A stretch of DNA of 64,000 nt from an uncultured Clostridia bacterium. GTDB taxonomy: Bacteria; Bacillota; Clostridia; Christensenellales; Borkfalkiaceae. Below, piece by piece: positions 18,962 to 30,305 of this stretch. The notes under the pieces were generated by a model, which saw only the letters and a program-made list of their open reading frames with translations, searched no databases and had not been told where the DNA came from. Made by a program: the position numbers and the translations under genes. The stretch spans positions 1 to 64,000 of the forward strand of contig CALWCE010000001.1 of NCBI GenBank assembly GCA_944376295.1, given 5' to 3'. How positions within the stretch are numbered: position 1 is the first letter of the stretch; each line of letters opens with the position of its first letter.

Positions 18962-21217
18962 TCACTGTTCGTTTTTCGGGAGGGTCATATCCAGCTTTTT
19001 CTTGTGCTTGAAGTACCAGAAGAGGAGCACCGCGCCGCCGACGCACAGGACGCCGAAGACGATGGTGAGCGCAAGATACACCCCGAAGCCCGCGTCGTAC
19101 GCGACGGCGTACTGCGTCTGCACGGAAGTGATCGAGAAGACGAGATAGTCTCCTTCGCGCGTCGATTGGACGGCGATATGCCCGCCGTCCTCCGCAAGGC
19201 GGAAAAGCGTCACGTTCTTGTTCGAGAAGAAGCCGTCGATGCGGATGCGCACGGTAAGGGGCGTATCGAGCTCGGTGACGATGCGGCCGCCGTCGCGAAG
19301 GGAGAAGGAGAAGATCTGACGCGACTCCATGCTGCCTCCCAGCTTGGGCGCCGTTGTCTCCTCCGTCACGTCCTCGATGACGAGCTCCCACGAAAGCGGG
19401 ATGCCCCCCTCGCGCTCCACGGTATAAAAGATCGTGCCGTCCTCGTTCGTCGCCGTGAGCGAAGCATAGTAGACGGTCAGCGTCGCCGTACGCGGCCCGC
19501 CGATAAGTTCGTAATTTTTCTCGTCCGTCACATAGAACGTGATCTGCACCGTGTAGATACCTGCGGAGAGATTTCCAACCGTCCCGCCGTCCGAAAGCGC
19601 CGCTTCGGAAAGAACGCCCGCAGGGAGGGAGGGCGTGAATGCCTCCGGAGAGACCCCCCATGCCCCCGCGCGCTCCACTGCCACCGCATCCGTTACGGGG
19701 ATATCCGCAGTATCGACGACATGTCGGGAGATATTGACAACGATGTTTGCCGAGCTGCCGCCCGCCTGTACGGAAACGGTGACAGCGCCGTCCACATGCG
19801 AGGCAAGATCGCCCGAGAGCGTATAAAAAGCCGTGATGTAATCTTCGCCCGAAAGCGTCTGCGTCTCGGCGGCAGTCCTGCCGAGAGGGCGGGAAACGCC
19901 GTCGTTGAACAGCCCCGTCACCGTCAGATCGGGAACGAGCACGTCGAGAGAAGAGTCAAAATAGACGGTCGCCGTCTGTTCGAACACCGCCTCCACGGAA
20001 GTCAGGGAAGGCGCGATCACGTCGACATAGAAGGAAGCGGACGCCGTTTCGCCCCCCTCCCCCTTCGCCAGCACGAGCACTTCCGCCCGTCCTACCGCAA
20101 GGCGTTCCTCCCCTTCGGGCAGCGAAAGTTCGAAGGATATCCGGGATGCGGGATATTCCGTGCCGTTTTGGTTGACGCCCGTCACGGCGAGCCCTTCCCG
20201 CAGCGCTTCGAGCTCCGTCGTCGGATAGATGTTCCCGACGGCAGAGTAGACCGCCTTCACCGAGGCGAGCGGGGTAAGGCTCAAAGAATACTCGCTCCCC
20301 GAGACCACGACTTCGAACGCGGAGGAATCGGAGAAAAAGCCGGAAGCCGACCCCGTTGCAAAAGGTCCGCTCTGCGACATGGAAACGCCGACGCGGCCCG
20401 TGAGCCCGTCCGCACGGATGCTCGCCCCGGGAGCGAGATAGAGGTTTTCCGTCCCGTCCGCCCCCTCGTTCCCCGAAACGGACGCACCCCCCGAAAGAGT
20501 GACTTCTCCTCCCGCATACACGCCGCCGCCGTTGCCCGAGCAGGCGTTGTCCGCGATCCTGCCGCCCGTCATGCGGAAGGACGAGCCGGGATAGAGGCAC
20601 ACGCCGCCGCCGTTGCCGCCGGAAAGATTATCGATGATGCCGCCGCCCGTCATGACCAGGCTGCCGCCGTCGCTGACCAGAACGCCTGCGCCGTCCTCGG
20701 ACGTATTGTGCGTGATATAGCCGTTTTCGAGCCTGAGCGAACCGCCCCGCTCCACGCGGACGCCGCCGCCCGTCAGTTCGCCGCCGCCCGATGCGCTCCC
20801 GTCCGTCACGACGAGCGGTCCGCCCGTCACGCGCAGCGTCCTTCCCGAACGCCCGTCCAGCGTAAAGCCGTTGAGATCGAGGGTGCAGGAGACGGAGACA
20901 GTCACCGTCGAAGCAGTGACGTCTTTAAGCAGCGTGAGCGTCGCGCCCTCCGTCCATGCGGCAAGCGCTGAGGAAAAGTCGGCATATCCCGTCGTGCTGC
21001 CGCCCGAAGTGACGGTCGCGACGTTCTGCGCGGGGGCAGGCTCTTCGCCGCCCGTTTCGCCCGAACTTCCGCCCGTTTCGCCGCCCGATCCAAGCGTTTC
21101 GTCCGGGTCCGTCGCCGCCTCGGCAGGCCGCACAGGCGCAAAAAACAAAACGAGCGCCGCAAAAAACGCCGCAAAAAGCAGGATGAAAATGGTGAGCCTA
21201 TGCCGCTCCGTCCTCAT
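18962..21217 (-). CDS. Secreted, C-terminally membrane-anchored protein with beta-helix-like repeats, function unknown
   Basis: This 751-residue protein has a signal peptide with cleavage after RPAEA (about residue 34). A Gly/Ser/Glu-rich linker (SGGETGGSSGETGGEEPAP) follows. Residues ~70-290 form a glycine-rich repeat region (LVMTGGGIIDN, FRMTGGRIADNACSGNGGGVYAGG) of the kind that makes parallel beta-helices in adhesins and polymorphic surface proteins. Residues ~300-650 look like several beta-sandwich or Ig-like modules. One membrane segment (VYLALTIVFGVLCVGGAVLLFWYF) and a KHKKK tail end the protein. A GGAGGG lies before the ATG. I do not recognise a catalytic domain; it is probably a surface or sporulation-associated structural protein. 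Confidence 0.75.
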   Translation of the reverse strand: MRTERHRLTIFILLFAAFFAALVLFFAPVRPAEAATDPDETLGSGGETGGSSGETGGEEPAPAQNVATVTSGGSTTGYADFSSALAAWTEGATLTLLKDVTASTVTVSVSCTLDLNGFTLDGRSGRTLRVTGGPLVVTDGSASGGGELTGGGVRVERGGSLRLENGYITHNTSEDGAGVLVSDGGSLVMTGGGIIDNLSGGNGGGVCLYPGSSFRMTGGRIADNACSGNGGGVYAGGEVTLSGGASVSGNEGADGTENLYLAPGASIRADGLTGRVGVSMSQSGPFATGSASGFFSDSSAFEVVVSGSEYSLSLTPLASVKAVYSAVGNIYPTTELEALREGLAVTGVNQNGTEYPASRISFELSLPEGEERLAVGRAEVLVLAKGEGGETASASFYVDVIAPSLTSVEAVFEQTATVYFDSSLDVLVPDLTVTGLFNDGVSRPLGRTAAETQTLSGEDYITAFYTLSGDLASHVDGAVTVSVQAGGSSANIVVNISRHVVDTADIPVTDAVAVERAGAWGVSPEAFTPSLPAGVLSEAALSDGGTVGNLSAGIYTVQITFYVTDEKNYELIGGPRTATLTVYYASLTATNEDGTIFYTVEREGGIPLSWELVIEDVTEETTAPKLGGSMESRQIFSFSLRDGGRIVTELDTPLTVRIRIDGFFSNKNVTLFRLAEDGGHIAVQSTREGDYLVFSITSVQTQYAVAYDAGFGVYLALTIVFGVLCVGGAVLLFWYFKHKKKLDMTLPKNEQ

Positions 21218-25163: not shown

Positions 25164-25302
25164 GTTTTTCGGGGGGCTATCCCTCCCCGCCGACGCCGCG
25201 CCGAGACCGCCTCGATTTGCGATACGGGCGCCGCGGAAAACACCGCCTCGCTGCGCCGCGAAAAAAAGCGGGAAAAACGCAAAAAAATTTTTTCCCAAAC
25301 GC

Positions 25303-25330
25303 TTGACAAATTCAGGATATGTGTTATAAT
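25303..25330 (+). promoter_or_regulatory. Consensus promoter of the large non-coding RNA
   Basis: A perfect TTGACA at 25303-25308 and a perfect TATAAT at 25325-25330 are spaced by 16 bp. The predicted transcript start is about 25337. The promoter lies 140 nt after the GerC stop. The spacer before it (25164-25302) shows no gene, only an A/T-rich dyad GGGAAAAA...TTTTTTCCC at 25270-25296. Confidence 0.85.
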
Positions 25331-25336
25331 GTAGCC

Positions 25337-25876
25337 AAGAAAGAGAAAGAAACACACAAACAAAGTTACTTTCTCACAAATAACCACAAGGGGACTACTC
25401 CAATGTGCACGTAAACCGATGCAACTTTAGGACGATCTCACAAGGAAGGAAAGACCAATGCACAATTAACGCGATAACTTCATGAGGCGGAAATTGAATC
25501 AGCGAGGGCTACTCCAATGACCATGTGACCCAAGTGGCAAAGGCAAGCGGGGAAAGCAGGCTGGACCCGCAAAGCGGAGATTCTACTCCGAGAAAATCTC
25601 ATATCGGGAGGTACGCTTGATATGACAAACTTCATTCCCCGTGAGGCGAGGAAGATCTCGGATAAGGAGGACAGACCAACGTACAATTTCACCGAAGGGG
25701 CGCAAAGCTGATCGGATGAACAGAACTTAAAGCGATCGACCCACTTGATCGCACCGGAAGTTTGATTCCACATTGAGTTCAAGCCGAGAAGTGCCGAAAC
25801 GGCCCGCCCCGGTCACAACTGAATTTGGCAAATAAATCCCTCCTCCGTGCGGCCGCGCGGAGGAGCTGTTTTTTTG
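25337..25876 (+). ncRNA. Candidate large structured non-coding RNA (~540 nt), family not recognised
   Basis: A consensus promoter and a strong terminator frame ~540 nt without a convincing gene and visibly less GC-rich than its neighbours. Internal structure is suggested by two copies of [G]CTACTCCAATG (25394-25405, 25509-25519). There are also two copies of a ~26-nt purine-rich block AAGGA[AG]GxxAGACCAAxGxACAATT (25442-25467, 25664-25689). Possible helices are GCGATC/GATCGC (25732-25737 with 25747-25752), CGGAG/CTCCG (25575-25579 with 25586-25590), CATATC/GATATG (25600-25605 with 25619-25624), CGAG/CTCG (25647-25650 with 25657-25660) and GCCG-AAA-CGGC (25793-25803). A long-range end-closing helix CAATGTG/CACATTG (25401-25407 with 25769-25775) is possible. 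CAAGTGG (25531-25537) can pair with the hairpin loop CCACTTG (25741-25747) as a pseudoknot. OLE, GOLLD, ROOL and raiA are known large RNAs of this size class; I cannot match it to any by eye. Confidence 0.62.
25840..25876 (+). terminator. Terminator of the large RNA
   Basis: The stem CTCCTCCG/CGGAGGAG (25840-25847 with 25858-25865) has a GC-rich loop and is followed by CTGTTTTTTTGTTGTTTT. Confidence 0.85.
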
Positions 25877-26230
25877 TTGTTTTCGAGGGCGGGGGCTTTG
25901 CCGCCCCTTTTCGTTCGGCGGGACGGGATGTTTAGGGTTGTTTTCGAGGGGCGGGCTCTTTGACGCCCCCTTCCGCTTGTTTGAACAGCGGGAGAGTTTT
26001 TCGTGTTCCCCCTTTTTTCCTTATCAGGGCGACGAGCGAACTTGTTATCCCCACTTCCTTTCGTGCGCAGCGGGGAGATGTTTGGGGCTGTTTTCGGGGG
26101 CGGGGGCTTTGCCTCCCCTTCCGCTTGTATGAACAGCGGGAGAATTTTTCATATTCCCCCTTTTTTCCTTATCAGGGCGATGGACAACCCTATTTATATC
26201 TCCCCTTCCGTTCGGCGGCGGGGGGATGTT
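25873..26230. repeat. Tandem ~150-bp repeats (one partial, two full units), non-coding
   Basis: Units at about 25935-26083 and 26084-26230 share GGG[TC]TGTTTTCG-GGGGCGGG-CTTTG-C-CCCCTTCCGCTTGT-TGAACAGCGGGAGA, then TTCCCCCTTTTTTCCTTATCAGGGCGA. A 62-bp partial unit at 25873-25934 keeps only the two ends. Each full unit can form three hairpins (GGGCGGG/CCCGCCC-like, CCGCTTGTT/AACAGCGG, GGGAGAAT/ATTCCCC). No supported open frame is present. The rest of the spacer, to 26607, holds a pyrimidine-rich stretch and the palindromic sequence described next. Confidence 0.75.
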
Positions 26231-26339
26231 AGGCGTTTTGTCCTCCCTCCCCTTTTCGGAGAAGGGAGAAGCGTTTTCCGGAGACGAAGAAAAGGGGTTG
26301 GAGTTTTTTGGCGGAAGAAGAGAACTGCCTTGATCGGAA

Positions 26340-28025: not shown

Positions 28026-30305
28026 ATGAAAGGAACCGTCTTCACGACCCCGCTCACGCTCAGGACGGCGGGAAAATACTGCGCGCTGCTCGCCTCCATG
28101 GTGCTTCTCAACTTTGCGCTGCCGCGGAGAGAGCCGCTCTCCTCAGCGCTTCTTTATGCCGCGCTCGCCTGCGGATTCGACCCGCTCCTTGCCGCCGCTT
28201 CCCATCTTCTCGCCGCAACAGCCGCCCTCTCGTGGATGGCGGCGCTCTCCGCCCTCTTGCAGGCGGTCCTTCTTTCGGGCGGCTTCTGGCTCTTCAGGCG
28301 CTTGAAGCGCAAGATGACGTGGGAAAAGTATATCCTGCTCGTCCTTGCCCAGCTCCCCTTTGCCTTTTTCTTCCCGCATGCGGGGTATGCGCTGCCCCTC
28401 TCTCCCGTCTGGCAGAAGGCGCTGCTTTCCCTTTTGACGGCGGCGCTTGCCCTTTTATTCGAGGGCGGGCTGGACGCGCTTTTAACGCGCGCCTTCCGCT
28501 GCCGCCTCACCGCCGCTCAGCTTCTGGAAGTCTCCCTTTTGTGGCTCTTTGGAGGCGCGGGGATATGCTCGGCGCTCGGCGAGCCCGTCTTTTACGCCGT
28601 CTCGCTCACGGCGCTCCTGCTTGCCGTGCATCTTTTGAAAAACGCCGCCGCGGTGCCCCTCTCCGTCGTGCTCTCGCTCCCGCTCTGCCTTTCGCACGCC
28701 GATCTTCTGCCGATGGCGACCTATTCCGCCTGCGCGTGCATTGCCCTCCTTCTCACGCCGTACGGGCGCATCGCCTCGGCGCTCTCCCTGCTTCTGTGCT
28801 TCCCCGCCGCAATGGCGCTCGAGGGGCTGTATGCGGAGAGCACGGCGCGCATCGTCTTCACGCTCGCCGCCTGCCTTGTCGCCGTCATTTTGACCATCGC
28901 CCTGCCCGAAAAGCTCTACCGCCGCGCCAAACATACGCTGCTCTTTTACCGCGAACGTACCCTTCCTCGCATCGCCATCAACCGCAGCCGCCGCGCCGTC
29001 GGGGAACGGCTGTATGAAGTTTCCTCCCTCTTCCGCGAGATCGAGACGGCTTTTTCGGAAGAGGACGGAAAGCGGGATACCGCCGCCGCCCTTGCTCAGG
29101 AGCTGAGATATACCATCTGCACGGACTGCGAAGGAAGGCAGCGCTGCGAAAAGGAAGGGCTGTTCGCCTCGATGGACCGCCTCGTCTCGGTGGGCGCTGT
29201 CAAGGGGCAGGTGAGCCTCGTCGACCTTCCCGCCGACCTCGGCGCGAAATGCCGCAACGCCGCGGGGCTGCTGTTCGCCTGCAACCGCCTGCTCGCCCAA
29301 TACCAGGGCACGGTGCGCGAGGAAGAGAGCGCGCGCGAAAGCCGCAGGATCCTCGCAGAGCAGGCGCACGGCGTGAGCGAAATTTTGCGCGACATCGCCC
29401 TCGAACAGAGCGAGGAGTGCGTCTTTTCGGAGGGGGAAAACGCGCTGGCGGGCGCGCTGGCGCAGGCGGGCATTTTAAGCTCGGAAGTGTTCGTGTACGG
29501 CGAAGGAGGTTCGGTCACCGTGAGCCTCACCCTGCCGCAGACGGTGAGCGCCAAGCGGCTGTGCTCGGTCGCGAGCGCCGCCCTCGGGGTGCCCCTCTCG
29601 CTGGCGGAAAAGATCGTCCTCTCCCCCACGAGCGCCTGCTTTGTGTTAAGAAGAAAGCCCGAATTCGACGCGGCGTTCGGCGTTGCGACGAAGCCGAAGG
29701 AGGGCGAGACGCGGAGCGGCGATACTTACTCCGTCTTGAAGATCGACGAGCGGCGCTTCCTCGTCGCCCTTTCGGACGGGATGGGCAGCGGTGCCGAGGC
29801 GCGCGACGTTTCCGACCGCACGCTGACCCTGCTCGAAAGCTTTTATAAGGCAAAGATGCCCTCCGAGACGGTGCTCTCCACCGTCAACCGCCTCATCTCC
29901 TATTCGGGCGAAGAACGGTTTTCCTGTCTGGACCTTGCCGCCGTCGACCTCGACACGGGGGATGCGGATATCGTCAAGATCGGCTCGCCCGTCGGCTTTA
30001 TCCTGGCGCAGGAGGAACTGAGAGTGCTCGAAGGCGAATCTCTCCCCTTGGGGATGCTGGAAGCCGTGCACCCCGCGACGCTCCGCGCGACACTGCATGC
30101 GGGGGACTTCATGCTCTTCATGAGCGACGGCGTAACGCAGGCGTTCGGCTCTTCTGCGGAGCTTTACGCTTACTTAAGCGCGCTCCGTCCCATCAACCCG
30201 CAGTCTCTCGCCGAAGAAGTGCTCAAAAAGGCGCTCGGCTGCTATCGGGGGAAGGCGGAGGACGACATGACGGTGCTTGCCGTCAAACTCATGAAGACGG
30301 CGTAA
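28026..30305 (+). CDS. spoIIE: Stage II sporulation protein E (SpoIIE), PP2C phosphatase
   Basis: This 759-residue protein dephosphorylates SpoIIAA to release sigma-F in the forespore and takes part in polar septation. The N-terminal third is about ten membrane segments. A regulatory region follows (ERLYEVSSLFREIETAF; a cysteine cluster TICTDCEGRQRCEKEG). The C-terminal PP2C domain, from about residue 555, shows GDTYSVLKIDERRFLVALSDGMGSGAEA (metal-binding Asp-Gly), LFMSDGV and DDMTVLAVKL. Length is a little under the B. subtilis protein. It stands alone between GC-rich palindromes. Confidence 0.96.
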   Translation: MKGTVFTTPLTLRTAGKYCALLASMVLLNFALPRREPLSSALLYAALACGFDPLLAAASHLLAATAALSWMAALSALLQAVLLSGGFWLFRRLKRKMTWEKYILLVLAQLPFAFFFPHAGYALPLSPVWQKALLSLLTAALALLFEGGLDALLTRAFRCRLTAAQLLEVSLLWLFGGAGICSALGEPVFYAVSLTALLLAVHLLKNAAAVPLSVVLSLPLCLSHADLLPMATYSACACIALLLTPYGRIASALSLLLCFPAAMALEGLYAESTARIVFTLAACLVAVILTIALPEKLYRRAKHTLLFYRERTLPRIAINRSRRAVGERLYEVSSLFREIETAFSEEDGKRDTAAALAQELRYTICTDCEGRQRCEKEGLFASMDRLVSVGAVKGQVSLVDLPADLGAKCRNAAGLLFACNRLLAQYQGTVREEESARESRRILAEQAHGVSEILRDIALEQSEECVFSEGENALAGALAQAGILSSEVFVYGEGGSVTVSLTLPQTVSAKRLCSVASAALGVPLSLAEKIVLSPTSACFVLRRKPEFDAAFGVATKPKEGETRSGDTYSVLKIDERRFLVALSDGMGSGAEARDVSDRTLTLLESFYKAKMPSETVLSTVNRLISYSGEERFSCLDLAAVDLDTGDADIVKIGSPVGFILAQEELRVLEGESLPLGMLEAVHPATLRATLHAGDFMLFMSDGVTQAFGSSAELYAYLSALRPINPQSLAEEVLKKALGCYRGKAEDDMTVLAVKLMKTA

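Follow-up and report, generated by a model that had tools for sequence, protein, structure and literature searches.

The window analysed here is the whole 64-kb stretch of DNA (64,000 nucleotides) from an uncultured Clostridia bacterium. Within it, an operon encoding GerA, a spore permease and GerAC lies upstream of the region 25303-25876, and SpoIIE starts at 28026. The region itself looks like an apparently autonomous transcription unit without an ordinary gene (Table 1). Its promoter is as perfect as a first-pass annotation, made from the letters alone, had claimed: the exact form TTGACA-N16-TATAAT with an extended -10 TG occurs at a single site in the whole window and gave 0 matches in 100 shuffles. 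The strong terminator claimed at the other end was found as a hairpin followed by a T run. That the region held no convincing gene was correct for ordinary genes, but it overlooked a series of micro-ORFs led by Shine-Dalgarno (SD) sequences. Both reported repeats are present, namely two copies of CTACTCCAATG (at 25395 and 25509) and two purine-rich blocks. By comparison with homologues the blocks correspond to SD-plus-start modules (AAGGAAGGAAAGACCAATG and AAGGAGGACAGACCAACG), and the two repeats are predicted micro-ORF start sites. Two other observations were made in the window. Directly 3' of the terminator (25880-26240), a GC-rich block resembling TTTTCGAGGGCGGGGGCTTTGCCGCCCC recurs about three times in degenerate form, as judged by eye. 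Upstream of the ger operon, a protein of 750 aa is encoded on the minus strand at 18962-21214; its match to a beta-helix is weak (E = 0.0013, short of the Pfam cut-off), and by eye it may be a surface protein.

Table 1. Features of the predicted transcription unit, in window coordinates.
Feature	Position	Strand	Details
UP-like A-tract/T-tract	25281..25293	+	seen in the sequence, 5' of the promoter
Sigma-A promoter TTGACA-16-TATAAT, extended -10 (TGn)	25303..25330	+	12/12 consensus bases
5' hairpin	25343..25375	+	GAGAAAG 25343-25349 with CTTTCTC 25369-25375
Micro-ORF 1a	25388..25414	+	SD AAGGGG; ATG at 25403; ATG TGC ACG TAA (Met-Cys-Thr)
Micro-ORF 1b	25442..25469	+	SD AAGGAAGGA; ATG at 25458; ATG CAC AAT TAA (Met-His-Asn)
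Micro-ORF 1c	25504..25528	+	SD GAGGG; ATG at 25517; ATG ACC ATG TGA (Met-Thr-Met)
ORF2 start hairpin	25600..25624	+	SD GGAGG in loop, 25607-25611; ATG in 3' arm, 25622-25624
ORF2 fused in frame to ORF3	25622..25711	+	MTNFIPREARKISDKEDRPTYNFTEGAQS-stop
ORF3 module	25664..25711	+	SD AAGGAGG; start ACG 25679-25681, then TAC; stop TGA at 25709
Closing helix P1 of the 3' domain	25697..25810	+	GGGGCG 25697-25702 with CGCCCC 25805-25810
Conserved 3' motif	25815..25824	+	ACAACTGAAT (ACAACUGAAU-like)
Intrinsic terminator	25840..25875	+	hairpin 25840-25865, then T run

The covariance models of Rfam 15, the check that the first-pass annotation had proposed, matched nothing in the window at the gathering score, and three matches obtained between 25250 and 25900 at E ≤ 10 were all at chance level. 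The undescribed status of the RNA therefore stands, and membership in a known Rfam family (OLE, GOLLD, ROOL, raiA or others) was rejected. On 16 homologous loci the same models gave two matches, a tRNA and a Gut-1 RNA, neither of them on the RNA; the latter (L255:1816-1890, 51.0 bits at a gathering score of 50) lies beside the micro-ORF RNA. A divergent tmRNA and a divergent 6S RNA were rejected as well, since the genome encodes tmRNA (G000:C1:193768-194149) and 6S RNA (G000:C2:5600-5777) elsewhere, and the RNA does not replace either. No description of such an RNA was found in the open-access literature, which is weak evidence of absence.

A DNA search found the RNA in 11 of 41 genomes (its own plus relatives), all of the same genus. 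With a covariance model of the ORF2-ORF3 core, it was detected in 95 of 103 genomes of this genus of uncultured gut bacteria and in 57 of the 60 better assemblies. There is nearly always one copy per genome. Second matches occurred in three of the 95; two of these are false (L194, L195), while G005 has two true-looking copies (L066 and L094). These lie on different contigs of an assembly that is listed at 4% contamination. With a second model, matches at E ≤ 0.1 were obtained in 237 of the 398 family genomes, spread over 12 of 18 genera. Among 38 further loci inspected, 34 were true-looking and four were not (L172, L173, L194, L195), so that the count of 237 includes some false matches. These four were dropped before the counts with n = 132 given below, which cover 98 loci of the main set plus the 34, with L066 and L094 coming from one genome. 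One spurious extra match in A4 and two in A6 were kept in building models R2 and R3.

Outside the family, model R3 matched 4 of 396 genomes in a search of the order, and a class-level search gave 18 of 291 at E ≤ 0.01, 15 of them outside the order. By inspection, most distant matches lie at ordinary gene starts. The matches in G142 and its relative G036 (70% identity across 241 of 461 bases) look real, and among the class-level matches G985 alone shows the architecture by inspection, with an 89% identical relative in G880. In both pairs there is a near-consensus promoter, whose -10 is weaker in G985/G880, together with a terminator and several micro-ORFs led by SDs. An ACAAYURAAU-like motif can be made out clearly in G142/G036 but only doubtfully in G985/G880. 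In G142 (L231) and G036 (L255), which belong to another family of the order, there are seemingly three ORF2-like plus ORF3-like repeats, with ORF3 reduced in places to Met-Tyr-stop. The order-level match in G032 is possibly real, and 61 genomes searched around it gave only short matches besides G032 itself. Those in G355 and G410 do not look real and were rejected, as was an earlier match in G244, which lies where an ordinary gene begins. Scanning GTDB contigs by pattern yielded 25 stretches; by title all of these are Clostridia MAGs, and 23 are 'Lapin' bins. The hairpin pattern had no exact match in viral contigs, and no BLAST match was obtained in plasmid or phage records; on these grounds a mobile or phage element was rejected.

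The comparison among genomes shows that 25303-25876 belongs to a family of predicted, separately encoded RNAs with conserved micro-ORFs and helices. The predicted architecture that it shows throughout the family consists of a near-consensus promoter, a 5' hairpin, micro-ORFs, a 3' domain closed by the helix P1, a ACAACUGAAU-like motif and a terminator, over a length of mostly about 350-900 nt. By a rule that demands exact TTGACA, the promoter was recognised in 129 of 132 members, the remaining ones being L104, with only 181 bp before the core match, L176 and L188. All 129 recognised promoters have a 16-bp spacer, 113 of them a TATAAT -10 and 128 the extended -10 TG, and in 124 the 35 bp upstream of the -35 contain an A-tract/T-tract. 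In 10 of the 31 genomes searched, the terminator sequence CCCCGTGCGGTTGCGCGGGG is present exactly once; the window's own genome is not one of the 10. Each copy adjoins the RNA according to the coordinates of the covariance-model matches in these 10 genomes. Found once per genome and always beside the RNA, it suggests more than a generic terminator.

The RNAs of the family carry two to five micro-ORFs in series, each led by an SD. In the window, CTACTCCAATG and the purine-rich blocks together form a repeated module of Shine-Dalgarno, spacer, CCAATG, a few codons and a stop. ORF1 was found by rule in 90 of 129 members (missed in 39), in 86 of the 90 located 58-72 nt past the -10. It has 2-6 codons in 81 of the 90, versus 35 and 8 of 90 in the other frames, while 10.6% of 2213 SD-ATG sites in flanking DNA have at most six codons; in 55 of the 90 it is only two or three codons long. 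ORF2 starts with ATG in 131 of 132 members, stops within 15 codons in 121 and encodes a peptide of 8-16 aa in 122, net positive in 116. In most members the ORF2 stop abuts the ORF3 SD, just 5' of it. ORF3 starts with ATG (116 members), GTG (9) or ACG (7), is 10 aa long in 96 of 132 and has Tyr as second codon in 127, so that a Met-Tyr start is usual. Weak matches of core model R2 to the ORF1 region of the same RNA were seen in L054 and L145, as if the ORF1 and ORF2 modules were of shared origin. In another genus of the family, L175 and L177 have a longer RNA with about five micro-ORFs. Their ORF3-like module lies within a longer frame (DTPTY) and has ACG where ATG would be expected, which is also seen in the window clade.

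Within this clade of six genomes, stops are kept through TGA/TAG and TGA/TAA changes. Micro-ORF 1a keeps its stop and encodes MCT or MCM, micro-ORF 1b is invariant in sequence, and micro-ORF 1c keeps its stop as TGA in four genomes and as TAA in L068 and L069. The ORF2 stop is lost, so that ORF2 continues in frame through ORF3, whose start is changed to ACG; this is a sign of coding independent of the codon test described below. However, L129 (G066) has an ACG start of ORF3 without a fused ORF2, which counts against a strict rule of fusion and ACG. The fused 29-aa ORF had no match in an NCBIfam scan.

Codon-level selection was assessed on the 40 closest pairs, each member being used at most once. 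Among codons with a single change, 38 of 90 were synonymous in ORF2 versus 21.7 expected (z = 4.07), whereas its other frames gave z = -0.49 and -1.5; without transition weighting the figures were 42 of 99 versus 20.9. Presumed non-coding controls ranged from z = -1.67 to 2.32, so the noise of the test is not small. The same pairwise test detected no codon-level selection in ORF3 (z = 0.65).

Helices are conserved alongside the micro-ORFs. The best stem in the first 60 nt averages 15.6 in 129 members versus 11.1 in shuffles, with 93% versus 33% scoring at least 12, which describes the 5' hairpin. Across the family, a hairpin often carries the ORF2 SD in its loop and the ATG in its 3' arm. Both sides are changed in six of the seven pairs of this hairpin, and its covariation score, from an alignment that was fitted to the model, is 0.102 versus 0.038 in shuffles, every slide scoring lower. 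The slide of +2 gave about as many double-change cells (27, in 6 pairs) as the helix (26, in 6 pairs), but only 24.7% of its cells pair versus 91%. By inspection, a clade with MFRFISQGLKIS-like peptides has lost the hairpin and retained ORF2.

The 5' strand of P1 lies within the last ORF3 codons. Between genera the helix varies while complementarity is kept (GGGCG/CGCCC, GAGGT/ACCTC, GGGTGTA/TACACCC, GGAGCGT/ACGCTCC). P1 was tested by script because the MAFFT sequence alignment of the 3' domain had misaligned its 3' strand, and members without a motif by rule were left out, 16 of 132 in the cross-genus test and 25 of 132 in the shuffle test. With its own partner P1 scores 16.5 versus 11.3 with the partners of other genera (116 members), and 92% versus 38% reach at least 12. 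Against its own 3' strand shuffled, the score is 15.6 versus 11.8 (107 members), but only 40 of these members exceed 95% of their shuffles, so that P1 is not significant member by member. When partners were swapped within a genus, own versus swapped scores were 16.2 versus 15.1 in the main genus, 14.1 versus 13.6 in g21 and 14.3 versus 10.9 in g18, and a test with cross-partners from the same set was uninformative (15.5 versus 14.5). P1 is thus supported as a predicted helix between genera and in g18, and is not proven pair by pair. Its 3' strand ends 0-8 nt before the 3' motif in 97 of 98 members, in a search that allowed at most about 15, and ORF3 stops at a median of 6 nt past its 5' strand (0-12 nt at the 5th-95th percentiles, n = 98). 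The search itself partly dictates this geometry: candidate 5' strands were taken only from 13-37 nt past the ORF3 start, and candidate 3' strands only from within 15 nt of the motif. The motif itself reads ACAACTGAAT in 69 of 116 members and has variants in the others.

Two further pairings had been proposed by eye in the first-pass annotation. The loop pseudoknot (25531-25537 with 25741-25747) was rejected, as it is broken in three of the five nearest relatives, by changes on the 3' side in L063 and on the 5' side in L068 and L069. The remaining two, L062 and L070, retain it, the latter with one G-U pair. Both strands of the candidate end-closing helix (25401-25407 with 25769-25775) are invariant in the six-genome clade, and its 5' strand overlaps the start of micro-ORF 1a; P1 is a better supported closing helix. 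As for the overall proposal of an undescribed large structured RNA, the RNA is apparently autonomous, partly structured, without Rfam match and conserved genus-wide, and its helices persist through sequence change, but it is not purely non-coding. Conservation of a reading frame instead of helices had been named as a ground against the proposal, and here the outcome is mixed since both are conserved.

How might such an RNA work? Near-universality in the genus, a copy number of nearly always one and a near-consensus promoter make an important role likely. We tentatively favor, at somewhat less than even confidence, a trans-acting RNA whose helix P1 and 3' domain are gated by the ribosomes on its micro-ORFs. 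The RNA would be abundant, with its fold set by ribosomes. ORF1, with its 2-6 codons, and the 5' hairpin would load ribosomes near the 5' end and stabilize the RNA; ORF2 would be translated and its ribosomes would terminate on the ORF3 SD. A ribosome finishing ORF3 would occupy the 5' strand of P1 and exclude the helix, so that translated and idle RNA would differ in the closure of P1 and in the presentation of the 3' motif, the presumed output. Such an RNA could report or buffer translation capacity. Transcription and translation of the RNA, the exclusion of P1 by a ribosome at the end of ORF3 and the role of the motif as output are all inferred from the arrangement of sequence features.

The main rival explanation is a messenger for a micropeptide, the product being the ORF2 peptide (8-16 aa in most, mostly basic) with ORF3 as a coupled second peptide, while the helices only tune translation and stability. 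It draws on the codon-level selection in ORF2, on the clade that loses the ORF2 hairpin and keeps ORF2, and on peptides that look similar by eye over large distances (MRVKFLEIT and MRPQFLEIG in the genus, MIKRYYLEI in G036, MLKFISSK... in G985/G880). However, an ORF1 of two or three codons could hardly yield a functional peptide, ORF3 is without codon-level selection, and both P1 and the 3' motif are retained despite their location outside ORF2; we regard this explanation as possible, if doubtful. Alternatively, the several strong SDs with early stops might act as an over-expressed minigene does and tie up 30S subunits, initiator tRNA or initiation factors. The near-consensus promoter, the SD placed in a hairpin loop and an ORF1 of 2-6 codons would all suit such a sponge, as would the minigene effects on mRNA reported in PMC8708949. 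Yet it leaves the codon selection in ORF2, P1 and the 3' motif unexplained, and a single gene copy per genome would have to yield enough RNA to titrate ribosomes, which makes a sponge improbable.

The genomic neighborhood bears on a further explanation, a leader or attenuator through which the downstream gene (spoIIE) is controlled by terminator read-through. Leader-peptide-like ORFs 5' of a terminator would fit, as would the commonest gene order, with gerC upstream and spoIIE downstream, both codirectional (39 of 98 loci of the main set). However, 15 of the 98 have the RNA in inverted orientation with respect to gerC and spoIIE, only 10 of the 38 further family loci lie near gerC, and in another genus (g18) the RNA is flanked by other genes. 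Since neighbors and orientation vary between relatives, cis control is unlikely: control of spoIIE or ger in cis was rejected, and we consider the leader explanation the least probable of those weighed. Accordingly, the position downstream of the germination operon, under which the region had been annotated, holds locally but not in those relatives. Finally, the RNA might be an ornate, purely non-coding one with incidental SD-start-stop patterns. Helices that are kept while the sequence changes and the ACG start of ORF3 in 7 of 132 members speak for this, whereas the frame-specific synonymous bias in ORF2, the stops that the window clade keeps through stop-codon changes and ORF1 lengths far from background speak against it. 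It is thus very improbable.

If ribosome gating applies, the RNA would represent a new kind of regulatory RNA, trans-acting and structured, with serial start-stop micro-ORF modules and ribosomes as ligand. In this wider claim, loading on ORFs of two to fifteen codons and termination on a closing helix would switch the 3' domain, from which the cell would read its translation state; we put it forward with more reserve, as a speculative possibility. An autonomous structured RNA with serial ORFs of two to fifteen codons fits poorly into the category of either ncRNA or mRNA. Its ORFs are too short for gene finders, which would miss it, and their presence may lead RNA pipelines to set it aside. One RNA pipeline is described as using RNAcode; it classes an ORF motif as uORF or sORF when there is no extra structure, and retains structured ORF motifs for further study (PMC6429828). 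The RNA makes it testable whether a trans-acting RNA can take the ribosome occupancy of start-stop ORFs as its signal.

Among known RNAs, OLE, GOLLD, ROOL and raiA are large, autonomously transcribed, helical and widely conserved in Firmicutes. The present RNA resembles them in size, autonomous transcription, helices and wide conservation, but it has no Rfam match and it has conserved micro-ORFs, which those four are not known to have. The likeness to them as purely non-coding ornate RNAs, suggested by the first-pass annotation, is not borne out, as SD-led micro-ORFs are the most conserved inner features. Type I toxin mRNAs encode a hydrophobic membrane peptide and are paired with an antisense RNA; such toxins differ from short, mostly net-positive peptides like those of ORF2. 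CsrB-like sponges present CsrA-bound GGA motifs in hairpin loops, and here GGAGG stands in the loop of the ORF2 hairpin. Minigenes, such as lambda bar and axe-txe mg2, are SD-led ORFs of two to three codons, as ORF1 is in the 55 of 90 members noted above. Whereas minigenes act inside or ahead of an ordinary gene, as with the effect of axe-txe mg2 on translation in cis, possibly via mRNA stability (PMC8708949), the present transcript has no ordinary gene. Short ORFs, coupled SDs and a terminator are shared with uORF and attenuator leaders, but the RNA lacks a constant downstream gene, and so the constant position ahead of a regulated gene, and its orientation flips. RNAIII and SgrS are structured regulatory transcripts that also encode a small peptide. 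SR1/SR1P likewise combines a regulatory RNA and a small peptide in a dual function, as PMC8501984 describes. Two hallmarks of such RNAs are seen here, conserved structure in the ORF2 hairpin, P1 (weak in two genera) and the 5' hairpin, and a conserved coding sequence in ORF2, in its own frame only. While RNAIII, SgrS and SR1 carry one longer ORF, the present RNA has two to five SD micro-ORF modules in series, the last of which overlaps the closing helix.
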